Source: Nesterenkonia sp. PF2B19 (GTDB taxonomy: Bacteria; Actinomycetota; Actinomycetes; Actinomycetales; Micrococcaceae). From it: a stretch of 64,000 nucleotides of DNA. The stretch is from the NCBI RefSeq assembly GCF_001758425.2, contig NZ_MDSS02000001.1:1-64000 (forward strand), in the 5' to 3' direction. Positions 4,526 to 52,310 of this stretch are shown here, one piece after another. Below the pieces are notes generated by a model. The model made no database searches. It was not told the DNA's origin and saw nothing but the letters and a program-made list of their open reading frames with translations. A program made the translations under genes and the position numbers. The stretch's first letter is position 1, and every line of letters starts with the position of its first letter.

Positions 4526-5982
4526 ATGAGCGAGAAGCAGAGCACGGAGCAGCAGAGCACGGAGCAGCAGAGCACCGAGAAGCTGACCACCGAGCAGGAC
4601 GCGGGCCGGGAGTTCGAGGGCGAGACGACCCGGACCGAGGACCAGGACCTGCCAGGAGCGATCCGGGAGCTGTCCGAGCGTGCCCGTGCGGCGTCGAGAC
4701 GCCTCGCTCAGCTGGATCGGGAGCGGAAGGACCGGACGCTGGCTGCTGTGGCCCAGGGGCTGCGTGAGTCGCGGGCCGCCCTCATCGAGGCGAACCAGAA
4801 GGACCTGGATCGCGGTCGGGAGTCGGGGCTGAGCCGTGCCCTGCTGGACCGGCTGGCCCTCGACGAGGCACGCATCGAACAGCTGGCCGCCGCCGTGGAG
4901 GAGATCATCGCCCTCGACGACCCTGTGGGTCGCGTCGTGCAGGGTCGCACGTTGCCCAACGGCCTGCGACTGAGTCAGGTGACGGTTCCGCTGGGCGTCA
5001 TCGGGGTCATCTACGAGGCCCGCCCCAATGTGACGGTCGACATCGCCGCGTTGGCGCTGAAGTCCGGCAACGCGGCGCTCCTGCGCGGCGGCTCGGCGGC
5101 GCAGAGCACCAATGAGACGCTGCTGGCCGTGATCCGGGACGCCTGCGGGCCACGGCGGCGCCGGTGGACGCTGTGCTGAGCATCGATGCGCACGGACGAG
5201 ACGGCGCGACCGAGCTGATGACGCAGGTCGGCTCGGTGGACGTGCTGATTCCGCGCGGAGGCCGGGAACTGATCCAGCATGTCGTGCGCACCTCCCGTGT
5301 GCCGGTCATCGAGACCGGTGAGGGCAACGTCCACGTGTTCGTCGATGCCAGCGCCGACCCGTCGATGGCTCGAGACATCGTGGTCAACGCCAAGGCGCAT
5401 CGGCCCAGCGTGTGCAATGCCGCGGAGACCCTGCTGCTGCATCGGGATGCGGAGGCCGCCGGCCGTGAGGTGCTGCGCGGTCTGCTCCGTGCCGGCGTGG
5501 ATCTGCATCTGGACCCCCGAGCCCAGGAGTGGCTGCCGGTTCAGGAGCCGGAAGATCCGGCGCGCAGCGGCGTCGAAGGCCAGGTCCTGGAGCTGACGGA
5601 CGAGGACTTCGCCACGGAGTACCTGGATCTGCAGATGGCTGTGGGCGTCGTCGACTCCCTGGAGGAGGCGATCGAACACATCGGCCGGTGGAGCACCGGA
5701 CACACCGAGGCGATCATCACGGATTCGGTGGCCCATGCGGACCGGTTTGTGGCGGAGATCGACGCGGCGGCGGTCGTGGTCAACGCGTCGACCCGGTTCA
5801 CCGACGGCGGAGAGTTCGGCCTGGGGGCCGAGGTGGGGATCTCGACGCAGAAGATGCATGCCCGCGGCCCCATGGGCATGGGCGAGCTGACCACCACCAA
5901 ATGGATCGTTCGCGGTGAAGGTCAGGTGCGTGGGGCCCGTGCCGAGAGCTCCGCGTTCCCGGGATCCTGCCCGGGGGACTGA
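4526..5982 (+). pseudogene. proA: Gamma-glutamyl phosphate reductase, frameshifted (probable one-base deletion)
   Basis: ProA reduces glutamyl-5-phosphate to the semialdehyde with NADPH, the step after ProB. The first frame covers IEANQKDLDRGRESGLSRA, YEARPNVTVD and LLRGGSAA, then stops at 5179. The second frame covers the DVLIPRGG and ETGEGNVHVFVD regions and the catalytic-cysteine segment PSVCNAAETLLLH, ending at 5982. Adding one C near 5142 joins them as VIRDALRATAAPVDAVL, giving 485 residues. ATG 4526 is the likely start; a -10 box TAGGCT (4513-4518) lies 7 nt upstream, so it may also have its own promoter. The N-terminal extension carries a short STEQQ repeat from a 15-bp tandem duplication (4541-4570). 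Confidence 0.9.
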
Positions 5983-42187: not shown

Positions 42188-44631
42188 ATGCAGTTGGACA
42201 TCCTGGGCCCGATCCGGGTCTGCCACGAGGATCGGAGTCCGGTGGTCCTCACCGGCCTCCAGGGGCTGCTGCTGGCCATGCTGGTGGCGGCCCGCGGACG
42301 CCCTGTCCCCACGGACCGACTCCTCGACGCGATGTGGGGAGACAACCCCTGCCCCCGGGCGGCCCACCGCCTGCAGACCCATGTGCACCGGCTGCGCCGC
42401 ACACTCGGGGGCCCCGACGTGCTGCAGGCGGTGGGCGGCGGCTATGTGCTGCAGGTGCCGCCGGGCGCCACGGATGTGGAGCGGTTCGAGAACCTGATCG
42501 ATGAAGCCGCCGTGACGGCCGATGCGGACCCGCGCCGCGCGCAGGAGCTGCTGGGTCAGGCCTGCGGACTGTGGCGGGGACGACCCTTCGACGGGCAGAC
42601 CGGCGCCGGGCTCAGCATCGAGGCGCAGCGACTCGACGGACTGCGGCTGACCGCGCGGGAGAGGCTGAACGCGGCGCGCCTGGCCTGCCGAGAGCCGGAG
42701 GCGGTGATCGAGGAGGTCCCTTCGCTCATCGCCGAGCATCCCCTGCGGGAACGGCTCTACGAGCTGCTGATGGCCGCTCATGCCCTGCAGGGCCGGCCCG
42801 CTGAGGCCCTCGAGGTGCACCGGCAGGCCCGCCATCGGCTGGCCGAGGAGCTCGGACTCGACGTCGGCCCTGGTCTGCGTCGGCTCCAAGAGCAGGTGCT
42901 CCGTGGAGGGGCGCCGGCGCCGGAGACCTTCCTCACTCCCCGTCGGTCTCCTGCCCCGGCCGCCGGTGCCCCCGCAGCTGGCGTCTCTGCAGCTGGTGGC
43001 TCTGTGACCGATGTCTCTGTGACCGGTAGCGCCTCAGGTCGCGCGGCCACGTCCGGCGCGGTCCCTCCCCCGGCACAGCTGCCGGCGCCACCCCGCGGCT
43101 TCCACGGTCGGGAGGAGCTGCTCGCCCGGTTGGACGAACTGCTGGGCGCCGCGCCCGCAGGGGCGTCAGAGGCCGCTCCGGGCGACGCCGCCGGGTCCGG
43201 ATCGTGGCACTCACGGGAGGCGGCGGCACCGGCAAGACCGCACTGGCTCTGCACTGGGCCCACGGGGCTGTCACCGACTTCCCCGACGGGTGCCTCTACG
43301 CCGATCTGCGGGGCTTCGGTCCGGAGGCTCCCCTGGATCCTTCTCGCATGCTCGCATGGTTCCTCATCGCGCTGGGTGTGGACGCCGCCGGTGTTCCGGC
43401 CTCTCGCGCAGAGAGATCCTCACTCCTGCGCTCACTGACGAGCTCCCGTCGCATGCTCATCGTGCTCGACAACGCCCGCGATGCCGACCAGGTCCGTCCT
43501 CTGCTGCCCGGGTCGCCTCGCTCCGCGGTGCTGGTCACCAGCCGAGCCGACCTTCGACCTCTGGTGCTCCACGACGGCGCCCATCAGCTGACGGTCCCTC
43601 TGATGTCCCCGGCGGAGTCCCGCGCGCTGCTGGGCGGGACCCGTGGCCCCCGTCCCTCCGAGGAGCTGCGGGACTCCCTGGCGGAGGCCTGCTCCCATCT
43701 GCCGCTGGCCCTGCGGATCATGGATGAGCGGCTGCGACTGGAGACCGTCGAGACGGCCCCCGCCCTCCTGCGGGACCTCCAGGATGAGAGGCTGAGGCTC
43801 GACCTGCTGGACTCCGGGGATGAGGCGACCTCGGTGCGCACGGTCTTCTCCTGGTCCTGTCAGCGACTCTCCACCTCCTCGGCCCGTCTGTTCCGACTGC
43901 TGGGGACGGCCCCCGCCCGGTGGCTGGACGTCCCGGCCGTCGCGGCGCTGGCCGGACTGGGACCGGCCGAGGCGCGCCGTGGGATCGAGGAGCTCGACAG
44001 GGCCTGGTTGCTGGAGAGTCTGGAGACGGACCATGTCCGACAGCATGATCTGCTGCGTGACTATGCCGCCGAACTGGCGGAGGAGCAGGAGAGTCCTGAG
44101 GAGATCCGGGCGGCGTTCGATCGGCTCTGCTCCCATCTTCTGACCGTCACGGCCGCCGCCGTGCGGTCGGTGACGCGACCGCAGGCCTCAGAATCTGCTG
44201 AAGCTGTGGAGCCTGCTGAACCCGGCGCCTCTGGTGCGCCGGCCGCCTCAAGCAGGCCGGCGGAGCGGTTCGACGACCCTCAGGCGGCGGAGGACTGGCT
44301 CGCGCGGACCATCGACACCCTCGCCCTCGTCGCAGATCGGGCTGCCGACACCGGGCCCCGCTGGTTTCCGACCGAGCTGGCACGTCTGCTGGATCGTCAC
44401 CTGGATGATCGACGTCAGCTGGACTGCGCCCACCGCCTCCACCGGGCTTCGGCCACTGCGGCGCGACGCATCGGCGAGCTCGAGGCCGAGGCCCATGCCG
44501 AGCTCGGGCTCGCCGTGGTCGCGCTCCGGCGGAGTCGGCGGAGCGAGGCTGAACCGCATCTGGAGCGGGCGATGGCGCTGTTGGAGGAGGTCCACGACCC
44601 GGTGTGGCCGGAGACCGGGCCGTCGAGCTGA
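42188..44631 (+). pseudogene. AfsR/SARP-type BTAD-NB-ARC regulator, frameshifted (probable one-base deletion)
   Basis: The first frame encodes a winged-helix DNA-binding domain (LDILGPIRVCHEDRSPVVLTG, HRLQTHVHRLRRTLGGPD) and a bacterial transcriptional activation domain (about 95-240), ending in a disordered linker before a stop at 43438. The second frame starts within the NB-ARC ATPase: ALTGGGGTGKTALAL (P-loop), MLIVLDNARDADQ (Walker B), SWSCQRLSTSSARLFRLLG, WLLESLETDHVRQHDLLRDYA. One C missing near 43197 explains the break and gives 814 residues. The C-terminal TPR region is short, so AfsR-type sensing may be reduced. Target genes unknown. Confidence 0.8.
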
Positions 44632-45372: not shown

Positions 45373-48300
45373 ATGGGCGGCTTCGTGCATCTCGACGTGG
45401 CCACCGCCTACAGCGCCCACCACGGTGCCAGCTGGCCGGAGGACCTGGTGGCGGCCGCGGCGGCCGACGGCGCCGGAGCCGCCACCTGCGTGGATCGGGA
45501 CGGTCTCTACGGGGCGGTCAAGCATGTCATCGCCTGTCAGGGCCATGGCGTCGCTCCGATTCTCGGGGTGAACCTTCCGGTCGCCGAGGAGCGTCCCGAC
45601 GGCGGCCTGGAGGAGCGTGGACGGGTGGTCCTGCTCGCCCACGGCTCAGCGGCAGGCTACTCCGCCCTGTGCCGGGCGGTCTCCGCCGCTCATCTGCAGG
45701 ACCGCGGGGCGGGGCCTCGGCTCCCCCTGGCCCGTCTGGTGGAGCTCGCCTGCCCGGAGGGGCCCCGGGCGATCGCCGGGCAGGCTGAGCCGGCCCTGTT
45801 CGTGCTGCTGGGCCCGGAGAGCGACGTGGGCGTGGCGGCGGCCTCTCGTCGCTATGCCCAGGCGCGGCGTCTGCTGCGCGGCTGGGTCTCCACGCTGGGT
45901 GCGGGGACGCTGCGGGTCGAAGTGGTCTCTCATCTGGCGCCTCCCGGAGAGCCGCTCTCCACCGCCCATGCTGCGCGGATGCTCGCCGTCGCGGAGGACT
46001 GTGCGGTGGCTCCCGTGCTGACCAACATGGTGCGCTTCCTGCATGAGGACGATGCCACGACCGCCGACGTCCTCGACGCCGTCCGGGTGCTCTCCAGCCT
46101 GCAGGTCACGGAGACCCTGCAGCCCAACGGGCAGGGCTGGCTCAAACCTGCCTCCATGATGGAGCGGATCGCTGAGGAGATCTGCACGTCCAGCACGGCC
46201 GCCCGCATCGGGGCCGTGGAGCTGCTGGAGCGCACTCGGGCGCTGGCGCAGCGCTGCCTGCTGGACCCGGAGGCCCATATGAGCTTCGGGGCCCCGAAGG
46301 TGCCTGAGGCGCGAGTCATCGGGCTGGGGGTCTCAGGACGGTGCACAGACCCCCAGCGGGAGCTCGCCCAGCGGTGCGAAGCGGGACTGACCGCCCGCTA
46401 TCCCCGGCAGTCCCCCGCCGAGGCGGCGGCGCTGCGCGACCGCCTCGAGCATGAGCTGAGGATCATCGAGGACCTCGGCTTCGCCAGCTACTTCCTCACC
46501 GTCGCCGAGGTGGTGGACATGGTCGAGCAGATGGGGGTGCGGGTCTCCGCCCGCGGCTCCGGGGCATCCTCACTGGTGAACCATCTGCTGCGGATCAGCG
46601 CCGTGGACCCGATCGAGCATGAGCTGGTCTTCGAGCGCTTCCTCTCCCGAAGGCGCTCGACCCTTCCGGACATCGACATCGACGTCGAGTCCGCCCGACG
46701 CCATGAGGTCTATCACCGCATCGTGGAACGCTTCGGAGCGGAGCGCACCACGTTGATGAGCATGCAGAACAGCTACCGGATCCGTGGGGCGGTGCGCGAC
46801 GCCGGCCTCGCCCTGGGGCTTCCCGAGGAGGAGATCGCGCAGATCGCCGAGACGATGTGGCGCTTCCCGGCACGTCAGTTCCGTGAGGCGCTGGCAGAGA
46901 AGCCGGAGCTGCGTGCCCTGGCCGCCCGCCTGGACTCCGAACGGGAGCAGGGCCGGCAGCAGCTGGACCTCCTGGTGGACCTCACCGAGCGGCTGGACCG
47001 TCTGCCGCGCCACATCTCCACCCATCCGTGCGGGATCATCCTGGGTGATCAGCGGCTGCTGGACCTCACTCCGGTCCAGCCCTCGGGGGTGGACGGTCTG
47101 CCGATGAGCCAGTTCGACAAGCACGACATGGACCCCATGGGCTTCCTGAAGCTGGATGTGTTGGGCGTACGTATGCAGTCCACCATCGCCCATGCCCTGC
47201 AGGAGATCCGCCGCACCACCGGGGAACGGATCGACCTGGAGTCGGTGGACCGCGATGATCCGGACACCTACCGACTCATCCAGTCCACCCACACCCTGGG
47301 CTGCTTCCAGATCGAATCCCCCGGGCAGCGGGAGCTGGTCGGCAAGCTGGTCCCGGAGCGGCTGTCCGACCTGGTGGTGGACATCTCGCTGTTCCGGCCG
47401 GGCCCGATGGGCTCGGGCATGGTGACCCCGTACCTGGAGCGACGGCACGGCTTTGAGCAGGTGCGGTTCCCTCACCCGGACCTGGCGCCGGTGCTGTCCG
47501 AGACCCATGGGGTGGTGATCTTCCATGAGCAGGTGCTGCGGATCCTGGACCGGATGACCGGCTGCGGGCTCGACCGCGCCGACGAGTTCCGGCGTGCCCT
47601 GGGCGGGCCGGAGGAGGATGCCGTAGAGACGTTCTTCCGCAGCCGGTCGGCACGACGGGGGTACTCCCCCCGAGGTTGTCGATGAGGTGTGGGAGATCCT
47701 GGCAGGCTTCGGCTCCTTCGGATTCTGCAAGGCCCACGGGGCGGCGTTCGCCGTGCCCACTTTCGAGTCGGCCTGGCTGAAGACCCATCACCCGGCGGCC
47801 TTCCTGGCCGGGCTCTTCGAGCATGATCCGGGGATGTACCCGCTGCGGCTGCTGGTGGCTGAGGCCCGCCGCCTGGGTGTGCCGCTGCTGGGCATGGACG
47901 TCGACCGCTCCACCGAGCACTACGTGCTCGAGCCGACTCCGTCGCGGAGCCCCCGCGGGGAGCACACCCTGGGCATCCGCATGGCGCTGACCAGTCTCTC
48001 GGGCATCAGCGAGGCGGAGGTCCAGCGGATCGTGGAGGCCCAGCCCTTCGACTCCCTGGCGGACCTGCGGGACCGGGCCCGTCCGAAGCGCCCCACGTTG
48101 CGCGCGCTCGCCCAGGTGGGCGCGCTGGACTCTCTGATGCCCGGCGGTCGACGGCGCCGGGGCGATCTCGTCGCCTCCGTGGTCGAGCGCACCCGCACGG
48201 CGTCCTCCCCGAGGCGGCGCGAAGTGGTGGGGCAGCTGCCCCTGCCGATGGCCGACGTCGAGGTCTCCGCCCTGCCGCAGAAGCATCCGGAGCCGAGCCG

Positions 48301-48814
48301 GGAGGAGCTGATCAGCGATGAACTCCTGCTGACCAGCATCGACGTCACCGGTCATGTGATGGAGACCCATCGGCACACGATGGACCGTTTCGGTGTGACC
48401 CGGGCGGAGGACCTGCTGACGCTGCGCAGCGGCTCCACCGTCCGGGTGGCCGGCATCCGGGTGGCCACCCAGACGCCTCCGATGGCCAGCGGACGGCGGG
48501 TGGTGTTCATCAGCCTCGACGACGGCACCGGCTGTGCCGACGTCGCCTTCTTCGACGAGGCGCAGGGCAATGCCGGGGAGATCCTGTTCACCGCCCAGCT
48601 GATGCTGGTGGAGGGCACGATCCGCCGCACCGGGCCCCGGGCGGTGAACATCCAGGCCCACGAGGCGTGGGATCTGCGCCGCGAGGACCACGTGGAGCAG
48701 CTGTCCCGACGTCGCGCGCCGCAGGCCGCCCGCTCGACTCAGCCGGTCCGGACCGGCTCCAGATCCTCGGCCTCCTCATCGGTGAAGAGGCGGGAACGGA
48801 TCATGAACCGATGA
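45373..48814 (+). pseudogene. dnaE2: Error-prone DNA polymerase DnaE2 (ImuC), frameshifted (probable one-base insertion)
   Basis: DnaE2 is the translesion polymerase of the SOS mutasome. The first frame contains the PHP domain (HLDVATAYSAHHGASWPEDLV) and the polymerase core with PDIDIDVESARRHEVYHRI and VSARGSGASSLVNHLLRI. It stops at 47685. The second frame resumes VVDEVWEILAGFGSFGFCKAHGAAFAVPTFESAWLKTH, then the OB domain. A six-C run at 47666-47671, where five would restore RGYSPEVVDEVWEILAGFG, explains the break and gives 1146 residues. The last 25 or so codons overlap the convergent DUF779 gene. No imuB is in the window. Confidence 0.9.
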
Positions 48815-49128
48815 CCGGTGGGCCCCTCGATGGAGAATCCTGCACCGCGGCCTGCGGTGACGTCGATCGTGATGTGGGTGTGCGACCAGTACTCGAACTG
48901 CGCCCGGGAGATCCACACCGGGACGGGTTCGCCCGTGCCGGCGTCGAGCTCTCCGAGCAGGACGTCCGACGATCCGGTCAGGAACGTCCCCTGCGTGTAA
49001 CACATGGGGGCGGAGCCGTCGCAACAGCCACCGGACTGGTGGAACATCAGCGGCCTGCCGTGCTCCTGCCTCAGCCGTCGCAGCAACGCAGCGGCATCCT
49101 CGGTCACGCTGACCCGTGGGTACGCCAT
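48739..49128 (-). CDS. DUF779 protein
   Basis: The 129-residue product carries the DUF779 core PLMFHQSGGCCDGSAPMCY, a Cys-rich motif likely to bind metal, then WISRAQFEYWSHTHITIDV and a C-terminal region FSIEGPTGHRFMIRSRLFTD. DUF779 genes are nearly always beside an NAD aldehyde dehydrogenase, as here (79 nt downstream of the ALDH stop), so an accessory role in aldehyde oxidation is inferred. ATG 49128 is chosen with AGAAGGGA spaced 9 nt; ATG 49137 abuts the ribosome binding site. It overlaps the 3' end of dnaE2 by 76 bp. Confidence 0.88.
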   Translation of the reverse strand: MAYPRVSVTEDAAALLRRLRQEHGRPLMFHQSGGCCDGSAPMCYTQGTFLTGSSDVLLGELDAGTGEPVPVWISRAQFEYWSHTHITIDVTAGRGAGFSIEGPTGHRFMIRSRLFTDEEAEDLEPVRTG

Positions 49129-49207
49129 GGCCTTCATTCCCTTCTGGGCTCCGGCGGCGGCTCCCCCGTCCTGCAGGAGCCGCCACCGAGCGACGTCGCC
49201 CGGCGGC

Positions 49208-50731
<1,524 letters not shown>

Positions 50732-50794
50732 CGGGACTCCTTCGTCGTGATGGTCAGTGACGTCGCTCACGACTGTGACCGTAGCTCCGCCGAC

Positions 50795-50811
50795 GTTGCA
50801 CCTTCGTTGCA
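50795..50811. promoter_or_regulatory. Direct-repeat operator GTTGCA-N5-GTTGCA (ALDH side)
   Basis: GTTGCA at 50795-50800 and again at 50806-50811 with a 5-bp spacer, 64 bp upstream of the aldehyde dehydrogenase start. In the direction of transcription it reads TGCAAC-N5-TGCAAC, identical in design and orientation to 52273-52289 upstream of adhP. Confidence 0.7.
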
Positions 50812-51034
50812 TGCCCGTCGAGTCATCACAGGGCGGGCCCTCAGCTCCGGCAGATGACGGCACCGCTGTGATGCTCGTCTCCTCTGCGTGGTCTATCCTG
50901 ACCGCATCACGTGCACCATCGGAGCCGTCGTCGGATCGGTGTGCGACGGCCCTGCCGGCTGACGAGCATCTCGCGCAGGCCCCATCGGCGGCCCGAACCT
51001 CACCAGCCCATGTCCCACCACCACAGGAGGTCTC

Positions 51035-52237
51035 ATGGGGCGAGAGCCCGTCCCCGATGATCCGCAGACCTGGTCTGTCCTGCCGCCGGTGCTGCGCGAG
51101 TCCTGGCTGCGTTCGGCGAGCTACCTCGACGACCCCGTGAGAGCCCAGGCGCCGATCGACCTGGACGAGGGCGACCTGAACACGCTGCGTCGCGAACATC
51201 CGCTCTCCGCAGCCATGCCGCTGCTGGACAGGCTGCTGGTCCAGCCCGCGAAGGACGCGGGTCTCGTCGTCGCCATCGGCGACGCCCAGGGGCGCCTCCT
51301 CTGGGTGGACGGTTCGCGCCAGGCGATGCGCCGGGCCGAGACCAGTGCCTTCCAGGCGGGCGCCAACTGGTCGGAGCGCGCCGTCGGCACCTCGGCTCCC
51401 GGCACTGCGCTGGCCACCGGACGGGCCGTCCAGGTGAATCAGGAGGAGCACTTCGTCCCTGCAGCCCACCAGTTCTCCTGCTCAGCCGCGCCGATCCGCT
51501 GCCCGCAGACCGGTGACCTGCTCGGCGTGGTGGACATCACCGGCGGTCCTGCAGCCGTGGAGACGCACGCGCTGCCGCTGGTGCTCGCTGCCATCACCGC
51601 GGCCCAGGGTGAGCTGCGCTCCCAGCCCCGATCCGCCCCACGGCTCAGATTCTCCGTGCTGGGCTCGGAGACCGGCACGGTCACGGCTGGAGCGTCGAGC
51701 TGGCGATTGAGTCTGCGTCACGCAGAGCTGCTGACCCTGCTGACCTGGGAGGAGTCATCGTCCTCCGGAGGCGGCGCCAGCGCTGCCCGTCTGGCCGAGG
51801 ACATCTTCGGTGAGACGGGGCATGAGGTCGCCCTGCGCGCGGAGGTGACTCGGCTGAGGCGACTCCTTGTCGGCCTGCCGGGACACGCGGACCCGCCCAG
51901 GCTGAACTCTCGGCCGTACCGCCTGGATCCGCCGCCGTGGCTGGACGCCGTCGGTGTCGTCCATGCCCTCGCCGCCGGTGATCGCACCGCGGCGTTGGAC
52001 CTGTACTCCGGGGAGCTGCTGCCTCGGTCCGAGGCGCCGGGGATCGTCAGGATCCGTTGGGAGCTCTCAGCGATGCTCCGAGAGTCCATCCTGCAGGACG
52101 GCTCCCCGTGGGAGATCTGTCGATATCTGCAGCTGCCGGAGGCGCGCGGTGACGGCGAGGTCCTCCGGGAGGCACTGCGCGTGTTGCCTCCGGACTCGCC
52201 GCAGCGAGCCCTGCTGATCGCCCGCTCGAACCTCTGA
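51035..52237 (+). CDS. GAF-domain transcriptional regulator (AcoR-like)
   Basis: The 400-residue product starts like AcoR/sigma54-activator N termini ([24 protein letters not shown]). It has a GAF sensor domain (about 60-185; [49 protein letters not shown]). The C-terminal half is a DNA-binding region of winged-helix type ([39 protein letters not shown]). There is no AAA+ sigma54 domain, which suits Actinobacteria. It lies between the divergent ALDH and downstream adhP, both bearing TGCAAC-N5-TGCAAC sites, so it is the likely activator. ATG 51035 follows AGGAGG. Confidence 0.85.
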
Positions 52238-52272
52238 ACGGCAGTGCTCGGCTCTGTGGAGCATTGGGCTGG

Positions 52273-52289
52273 TGCAACCTCACTGCAAC
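52273..52289 (+). promoter_or_regulatory. Direct-repeat operator TGCAAC-N5-TGCAAC (ADH side)
   Basis: TGCAAC at 52273-52278 and 52284-52289, 58 bp upstream of the alcohol dehydrogenase start. Same spacing and orientation to the gene as the ALDH-side copy at 50795-50811. Confidence 0.7.
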
Positions 52290-52294
52290 GAGAA

Positions 52295-52310
52295 TGTGAC
52301 TAGCGTCACG
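52295..52310. promoter_or_regulatory. CRP/GlxR-like site upstream of adhP
   Basis: TGTGACTAGCGTCACG matches the CRP/GlxR half-sites TGTGA and TCAC with 6 bp between; only the last base of the second arm deviates. It lies 6 bp downstream of the direct-repeat operator. Global cAMP-type control is inferred. Confidence 0.45.

Follow-up and report, generated by a model that had tools for sequence, protein, structure and literature searches.

A GAF–SARP-like regulator and a predicted direct-repeat operator shared by alcohol and aldehyde dehydrogenase genes in Nesterenkonia and other Actinomycetota

SARP-type effectors are best known from antibiotic clusters; the binding of direct repeats is also a property of PhoB. 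The sigma54 activators DhaR and AcoR carry an N-terminal GAF region of the DhaR type. A GAF-containing activator of alcohol dehydrogenase genes, AdhR of Clostridium beijerinckii, has been described; it belongs to the sigma54 class, has the domain order GAF-PAS-AAA+-HTH and is served by three sites upstream (PMC7017808). As to the SARPs, PMC10936776 gives the rule that their targets hold direct repeats 11 or 22 bp apart, the 3' repeat being 8 bp from the -10 element; in the case of AfsR, the box measures 22 bp and extends from -40 to -19, with the first repeat at -40 to -30, and the activator contacts region 4 of sigma.

AfsR-like activation at 11-bp repeats, DhaR-type GAF sensing and GAF activators of adh genes are already known; the fusion of a GAF domain with a SARP-like half, joined to an alcohol-oxidation regulon, is a new combination of known parts, and a literature search of titles and the beginnings of abstracts, where absence weighs little, returned no description of such a fusion with this regulon and operator. 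The regulator considered here resembles AfsR and EmbR in the predicted fold of its DNA-binding half and in the use of direct repeats of 11-bp period just upstream of the -10 box, the arrangement given in PMC10936776; it differs in that the SARP-like part is C-terminal, behind a GAF sensor, in that the Pfam BTAD model finds no match, in that the targets are alcohol and aldehyde oxidation genes and in the distance between half-site and -10 box, which is 11 bp and not the 8 bp given in the same paper. With DhaR and AcoR it shares the N-terminal GAF region of the DhaR type, but no AAA+ sigma54 domain or Fis-type HTH was found in it by the Pfam search described below, and its promoters carry TAnnnT -10 boxes; compared to AdhR (PMC7017808), the output would be SARP-like and would operate beside the -10 box. 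Response regulators of the PhoB/OmpR type have in common with it the winged helix (Z about 6-8), whereas the present protein has no receiver domain and possesses an extra helical domain aligning with AfsR/EmbR.

The window, that is, the whole stretch of 64,000 nucleotides analysed from Nesterenkonia sp. PF2B19, contains the genes of an ExaC-type acetaldehyde dehydrogenase (ALDH) and of the alcohol dehydrogenase AdhP, members of two families that together convert ethanol to acetaldehyde and acetate (Table 1). The DUF779 gene that follows the ALDH gene is found in 36 of the 39 ALDH-holding loci (among L036-L089) and probably belongs to the same transcription unit. The sequence-only reading had placed TGCAAC-N5-TGCAAC before both dehydrogenase genes, with equal spacing and the same orientation relative to each gene, and the GAF regulator gene between the two sites; all of this is borne out, coordinates included, and the sites end 63 bp from the start codon of the ALDH gene (50731) and 58 bp from that of adhP (52348). 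The repeat is rare, with 2 matches in the window, compared to 0 in 100 dinucleotide shuffles, and random occurrence throughout the genome, named in advance as the outcome that would speak against an operator, is not what the search returned: the pattern TGCAACNNNNNTGCAAC has exactly 2 matches in the 3,696,919 bases (134 contigs) and its reversed control 0. Elsewhere in the window, upstream of the alcohol-oxidation locus, a BTAD-type SARP gene lies at 42470-42901, and a DnaE2-like polymerase frame (45373-48814) appears by eye to be split into two ORFs near 47685.

Table 1. Genes and predicted control elements of the alcohol-oxidation locus (window coordinates).
Feature	Position	Strand	Remarks
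DUF779 protein gene	48739..49137	minus	next downstream of ALDH; PF05610, E 2.5e-42
ExaC-type acetaldehyde dehydrogenase (ALDH), 507 aa	49208..50731	minus	NF050026, 948.7 bits (cut-off 900); PF00171
Predicted -10 box TACGGT (ALDH)	50778..50783	minus	11 bp past second half-site
Predicted operator, ALDH side, TGCAACGAAGGTGCAAC	50811-50795	minus	TGCAAC-GAAGG-TGCAAC; two half-sites, 11-bp period
Regulator gene, 400 aa, GAF and SARP-like halves	51035..52237	plus	predicted structure, fold and profile matches
Predicted operator, adhP side, TGCAACCTCACTGCAAC	52273-52289	plus	TGCAAC-CTCAC-TGCAAC; two half-sites
Predicted -10 box TAGCGT (adhP)	52301..52306	plus	11 bp past second half-site; inside palindrome TGTGACTAGCGTCACG
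adhP, zinc alcohol dehydrogenase, 343 aa	52348..53379	plus	NF006940, 368.6 bits (cut-off 344)

Exactly 11 bp beyond each site of the window stands a TAnnnT hexamer, a feature absent from the sequence-only reading. Upstream regions were collected wherever a tblastn match reached 60% identity and began within the first 30 residues; the best repeat match in them is exact in 43 of 65 ALDH genes, with one mismatch in 9, two in 5 and three or more in 8, the corresponding figures for 27 adhP genes being 10, 8, 1 and 8. Among promoters whose site has at most two mismatches, TAnnnT is found at offset 11 in 54 of 57 ALDH and 19 of 19 adhP cases, and at any other offset from 0 to 25 in at most 1; the offset played no part in choosing the sites. 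Since choosing the best match is itself biased toward the repeat, the argument is carried by this phasing and by unselected pattern counts. Indeed, nnCAAC-N5-nnCAAC occurs within 300 bp upstream of 67 of 70 ALDH genes and 20 of 30 adhP genes (mean 0.2 and largest value 2 in shuffles, which preserve base content only), and GCAAC pairs peak solely at the N5 spacing (58 ALDH, 20 adhP; at most 4 at other spacings). The nnCAAC pair was not found upstream of 3 of the 70 ALDH genes, two of them in loci with R-type and one with K-type regulators (see below); one of the R-type loci (L066) has a one-mismatch version. In the consensus, the spacers are far less conserved than the half-sites, which were themselves selected.

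With the -10 box assumed at -12 to -7, the half-sites would begin at -40 and -29, the positions at which the two AfsR repeats begin according to PMC10936776. The 11-bp period of the target promoters agrees with the SARP spacing; the interval to the -10 element does not, although it is counted from the end of a hexamer that need not be the edge of the bound repeat. A further element, TGTGACTAGCGTCACG (52295-52310), encloses the adhP -10 box and is a CRP/GlxR-like palindrome of the form TGTGA-N6-TCACA; of the 21 adhP promoters that have their own operator, 16 show it at an unchanged offset and with no more than 2 mismatches in 10 positions, and it suggests a second control acting over the adhP -10 box. 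Four HTH_Crp_2 matches above the cut-off are present in the genome.

Across 58 related genomes, the repeat followed by TAnnnT at 11 bp (base 1 of each half-site being C or T) is found at 57 places, versus 1 for the reversed control, and all 57 lie upstream of an ExaC-type ALDH gene (37) or adhP (20). Window shuffles, the whole-genome count and these control counts rule out a chance origin of the repeat pair. The regulator, scored as present at E 0.001 or better, occurs in 40 of the 58 genomes and so does the exact repeat: both are present in 37, the regulator alone in 3, the repeat alone in 3 and neither in 15. The combined repeat and -10 pattern is found in 37 of the 40 genomes with the regulator versus 0 of the 18 without it (Fisher p 3e-12, a value that overstates independence, the genomes being related); the strict pattern was not found in three regulator-bearing genomes (G030, G041, G052). 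Of 54 exact repeats in the same set, 44 precede ALDH or adhP, one precedes the regulator gene (L083) and nine lie elsewhere (L036, L037, L038, L040, L047, L049, L052, L058, L067). Because the reversed control yields 8 exact matches in these genomes, the nine were discounted as fortuitous; what lies next to them was read from ORF lists only, and two of them (L036, L058) lie upstream of regulator-looking genes. No TAnnnT was found 11 bp from the L083 repeat, and autoregulation is therefore not claimed.

The distribution of sites before adhP follows the arrangement of the genes. Twenty of 30 adhP upstream regions match the repeat and -10 pattern and ten do not; it was not found in nine of the latter (L045, L046, L048, L084, L120, L128, L129, L140, L162), in which adhP directly follows ALDH, in the same direction, at a distance that the match coordinates put at about 50 to 215 bp, while the tenth (L080) has a repeat with two mismatches. 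Where adhP is not directly behind ALDH, 20 of 21 genes have the site and 1 of 21 the two-mismatch version. One operator per predicted transcription unit is what is expected of a regulon, and the adhP pattern fits it. In four genomes, adhP lies remote from the regulator locus and has the repeat upstream, exact in G017 and G018 and with one mismatch in G011 and G025, the last a fragmented assembly. A shortened adhP (L054, 3247-3524) in G029 has kept a one-mismatch operator, and G013 (L066) contains the locus twice, the second copy being apparently broken.

AlphaFold models of the regulator (whole protein, pLDDT 91.6 and pTM 0.58; C-terminal half, 95.1 and 0.89) divide it into a GAF domain (about 16-199) and a SARP-like half (about 200-400) with a recognition helix at about 264-279, the two parts taking up all 400 modelled residues. 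Residues 16-199 match DhaR(N) in the fold search (Z 24.1, rmsd 2.0, 182 aligned), in agreement with a profile match to the DhaR-type GAF region (E 1e-15). The best fold matches of the C-terminal half are AfsR (8k60_J, Z 14.4, rmsd 4.3, 182 aligned; 8hvr_I, 13.9) and EmbR (2ff4_A, Z 12.9, 186 aligned; 2fez, 12.5), aligned over residues 1-197 of that half; the next entries are CadC (8.6) and OmpR-type domains (about 6 to 8), which cover the winged helix alone. Foldseek likewise returns 8hvr_I (E 1.7e-4, TM 0.53 by query length), and hhalign against five own-genome SARPs gives a probability of 85.6 and E 5.5e-6 over 146 columns. The C-terminal half thus looks like the AfsR/EmbR (SARP) fold, an OmpR-type winged helix followed by a helical domain, although other folds may apply to the helical part.

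The OmpR-type winged helix of the SARPs is therefore present by both fold match and hhalign, but in the SARPs it belongs to an N-terminal domain and here to the C-terminal part. The regulator is absent from the seven own-genome matches to the BTAD model (PF03704) up to E 10, and in a Pfam search of 26 family members at E 0.01 the counts were GAF 8, Trans_reg_C 1, PAS_4 1 and BTAD 0, with no AAA+ sigma54-interaction domain and no Fis-type HTH. Since domain order, lack of a BTAD sequence match and distance to the -10 box all differ, the protein is named SARP-like and not SARP. The sequence-only reading had seen in it an AcoR-like family member without a sigma54 domain; this holds for the GAF part, which is DhaR/AcoR-like, and for the missing AAA+ domain, but not for the C-terminal half, whose own fold match led us to reject a plain AcoR relative. 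The CxAxP motif of the GAF domain is confined to 74 of the 86 regulators, and the case for one constant ligand chemistry is the weaker for it; a cysteine serving as aldehyde sensor was weighed as an explanation and set aside. Shorter relatives also exist: four paralogs of 356-373 aa (L062 2706-3776, L078 7158-8264, L080 6589-7656, L087 3984-5102) are neighbours of the locus in three Nesterenkonia genomes and lie at another place in a fourth, and contig C68 of the present genome (L088 3541-5043) encodes a second GAF-winged-helix protein with a short C-terminus, divergent by eye from an FMO-like monooxygenase ORF.

Positions 268 and 273 of the recognition helix vary together with base 2 of the downstream half-site: they are R/R in 57 loci with G (R type) and K/(H, Q or Y) in 8 loci with C (K type), helix and operator matching in 65 of 65 loci with no exceptions. 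Counted were loci in which the helix could be read and an operator precedes ALDH, a pair with TAnnnT being preferred where present; 15 rows lacking ALDH, 3 lacking a repeat (2 R-type, 1 K-type), 1 with an unreadable helix and the four short paralogs were left out. In the upstream half-site, base 2 is G in 56 and A in 1 of the R type, and C in 6 and T in 2 of the K type. The K type accounts for 13 of 86 rows and forms a single clade (support 100/100), so that a single evolutionary change, preserved as lineages later separated, underlies the match. PMC10936776 names R87, T88, S91, R92, R94 and K95 of AfsR, with R87 at the backbone and R92 contacting a base; by residue pattern, R268 and R273 would correspond to R87 and R92, the alignment having been made through the RLRR pattern from published residue numbers and own-genome SARP sequences, without the AfsR sequence itself.

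Beyond the genus, a regulator profile (26-row alignment, cut-off 1e-15) has matches in 42 of the 396 genomes sampled from the phylum. A selection of 36 loci around profile matches (L120-L155) was fetched; 25 of them contain an ALDH with 60% identity or more, preceded by a TGCAAC pair with, at best, 0, 1 or 2 mismatches in 9, 6 and 3 and by an nnCAAC pair in 23. At this scale the exact repeat alone is not specific and is a weak marker, occurring in 89 of 396 genomes, i.e., in 21 of 42 with a profile match versus 68 of 354 without. Streptomycetes and Mycobacteriales are included, by tree placement beside the plasmid loci of Streptomyces sp. NBC_01324 (L164) and Tsukamurella tyrosinosolvens (L163). 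Two Acinetobacter plasmid records show divergent ALDH and regulator genes and the sequence TCCAAC-CTTTC-TCCAAC, with TATCCT or TATGTT 11 bp further on; a Deinococcus record (L167) contains the regulator, and no ALDH match was found nearby. That a widespread GAF-SARP one-component class is the main switch for ethanol and acetaldehyde oxidation in many Actinomycetota, reaching into Gammaproteobacteria, and that the spacing was kept while operator base 2 passed from G to C together with two helix residues, a natural specificity switch in a SARP-like helix, seems to us somewhat better than an even guess. At a distant regulator locus (L142, about 5685-5735, in G401), TGCATC pairs precede a different, 44%-identical ALDH and are possibly a further operator variant; in family f34, the matches listed include repeated copies of TGCAACCGTACTGCAAC, the spacer being constant and several copies often being present in one genome.

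Taken together, it is highly probable that the genes of alcohol and aldehyde oxidation are turned on by a ligand-gated GAF-SARP-like activator, which binds direct repeats of 11-bp period across the -35 region. Sequence and models show where the site lies, how it is spaced and how well it is conserved, that it occurs together with the regulator, that the fold matches and that helix residues vary with the operator; from these we infer that the protein binds directly, with two copies on each site, that it activates and does not repress, and which kind of ligand it senses. The one-component activator would consist of a DhaR/AcoR-type GAF sensor fused to a SARP-like DNA-binding half, a fold that suits an operator made of direct repeats of 11-bp period just upstream of the -10 box. 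Two copies would lie side by side on TGCAAC-N5-TGCAAC, one half-site per DNA turn, and in the manner of AfsR would recruit RNA polymerase to the TAnnnT box 11 bp downstream; a pathway molecule bound by the GAF domain, presumably ethanol, acetaldehyde or another short alcohol or aldehyde, would turn the regulator on, so that AdhP, for the step from alcohol to aldehyde, and ExaC, for that from aldehyde to acid, would be made together. A shared operator and a small alcohol-oxidation regulon, both put forward by the sequence-only reading, are backed by the site and its conservation, the regulon being predicted to serve ethanol and acetaldehyde; the proposed link to the GAF regulator is backed by co-occurrence, by the site before unlinked adhP genes and by the helix/operator co-variation.

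The same protein could instead be a repressor that its ligand releases from the site, where RNA polymerase might be blocked by the overlap with the -35 region; the fixed 11-bp phasing to the -10 box and the SARP fold, both of which suit an activator contacting sigma region 4, make this unlikely. The chance that some other regulator binds the repeats and that the GAF gene is a mere neighbour is smaller still: candidates exist, since the genome also encodes the GAF-winged-helix paralog on contig C68 and five BTAD-type SARPs, but the operator-promoter is missing from all 18 relatives lacking the GAF regulator, helix residues and operator base co-vary without exception, and, with the operator standing before a remote adhP in four genomes, adjacency alone is an insufficient explanation. 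That the repeat is a special core promoter, a -35 motif of some sigma factor, is hardly credible in spite of its constant spacing from the -10 box, a pair of half-sites with 11-bp period being unlike a single -35 hexamer, only two exact copies existing in the genome and the presence of the repeat tracking the regulator.

Under the activator reading, a poorly annotated protein, entered in plasmid records as 'GAF domain-containing protein', 'helix-turn-helix domain-containing protein', 'transcriptional regulator' or 'hypothetical protein', gains a predicted regulon, operator, promoter geometry and DNA-recognition code, and a SARP-type effector appears in one protein with a GAF sensor and in connection with alcohol oxidation. 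The two residues co-varying with one operator base offer a direct test of how a SARP-like helix reads DNA, and the GAF sensor could become an alcohol or aldehyde biosensor for actinomycetes.
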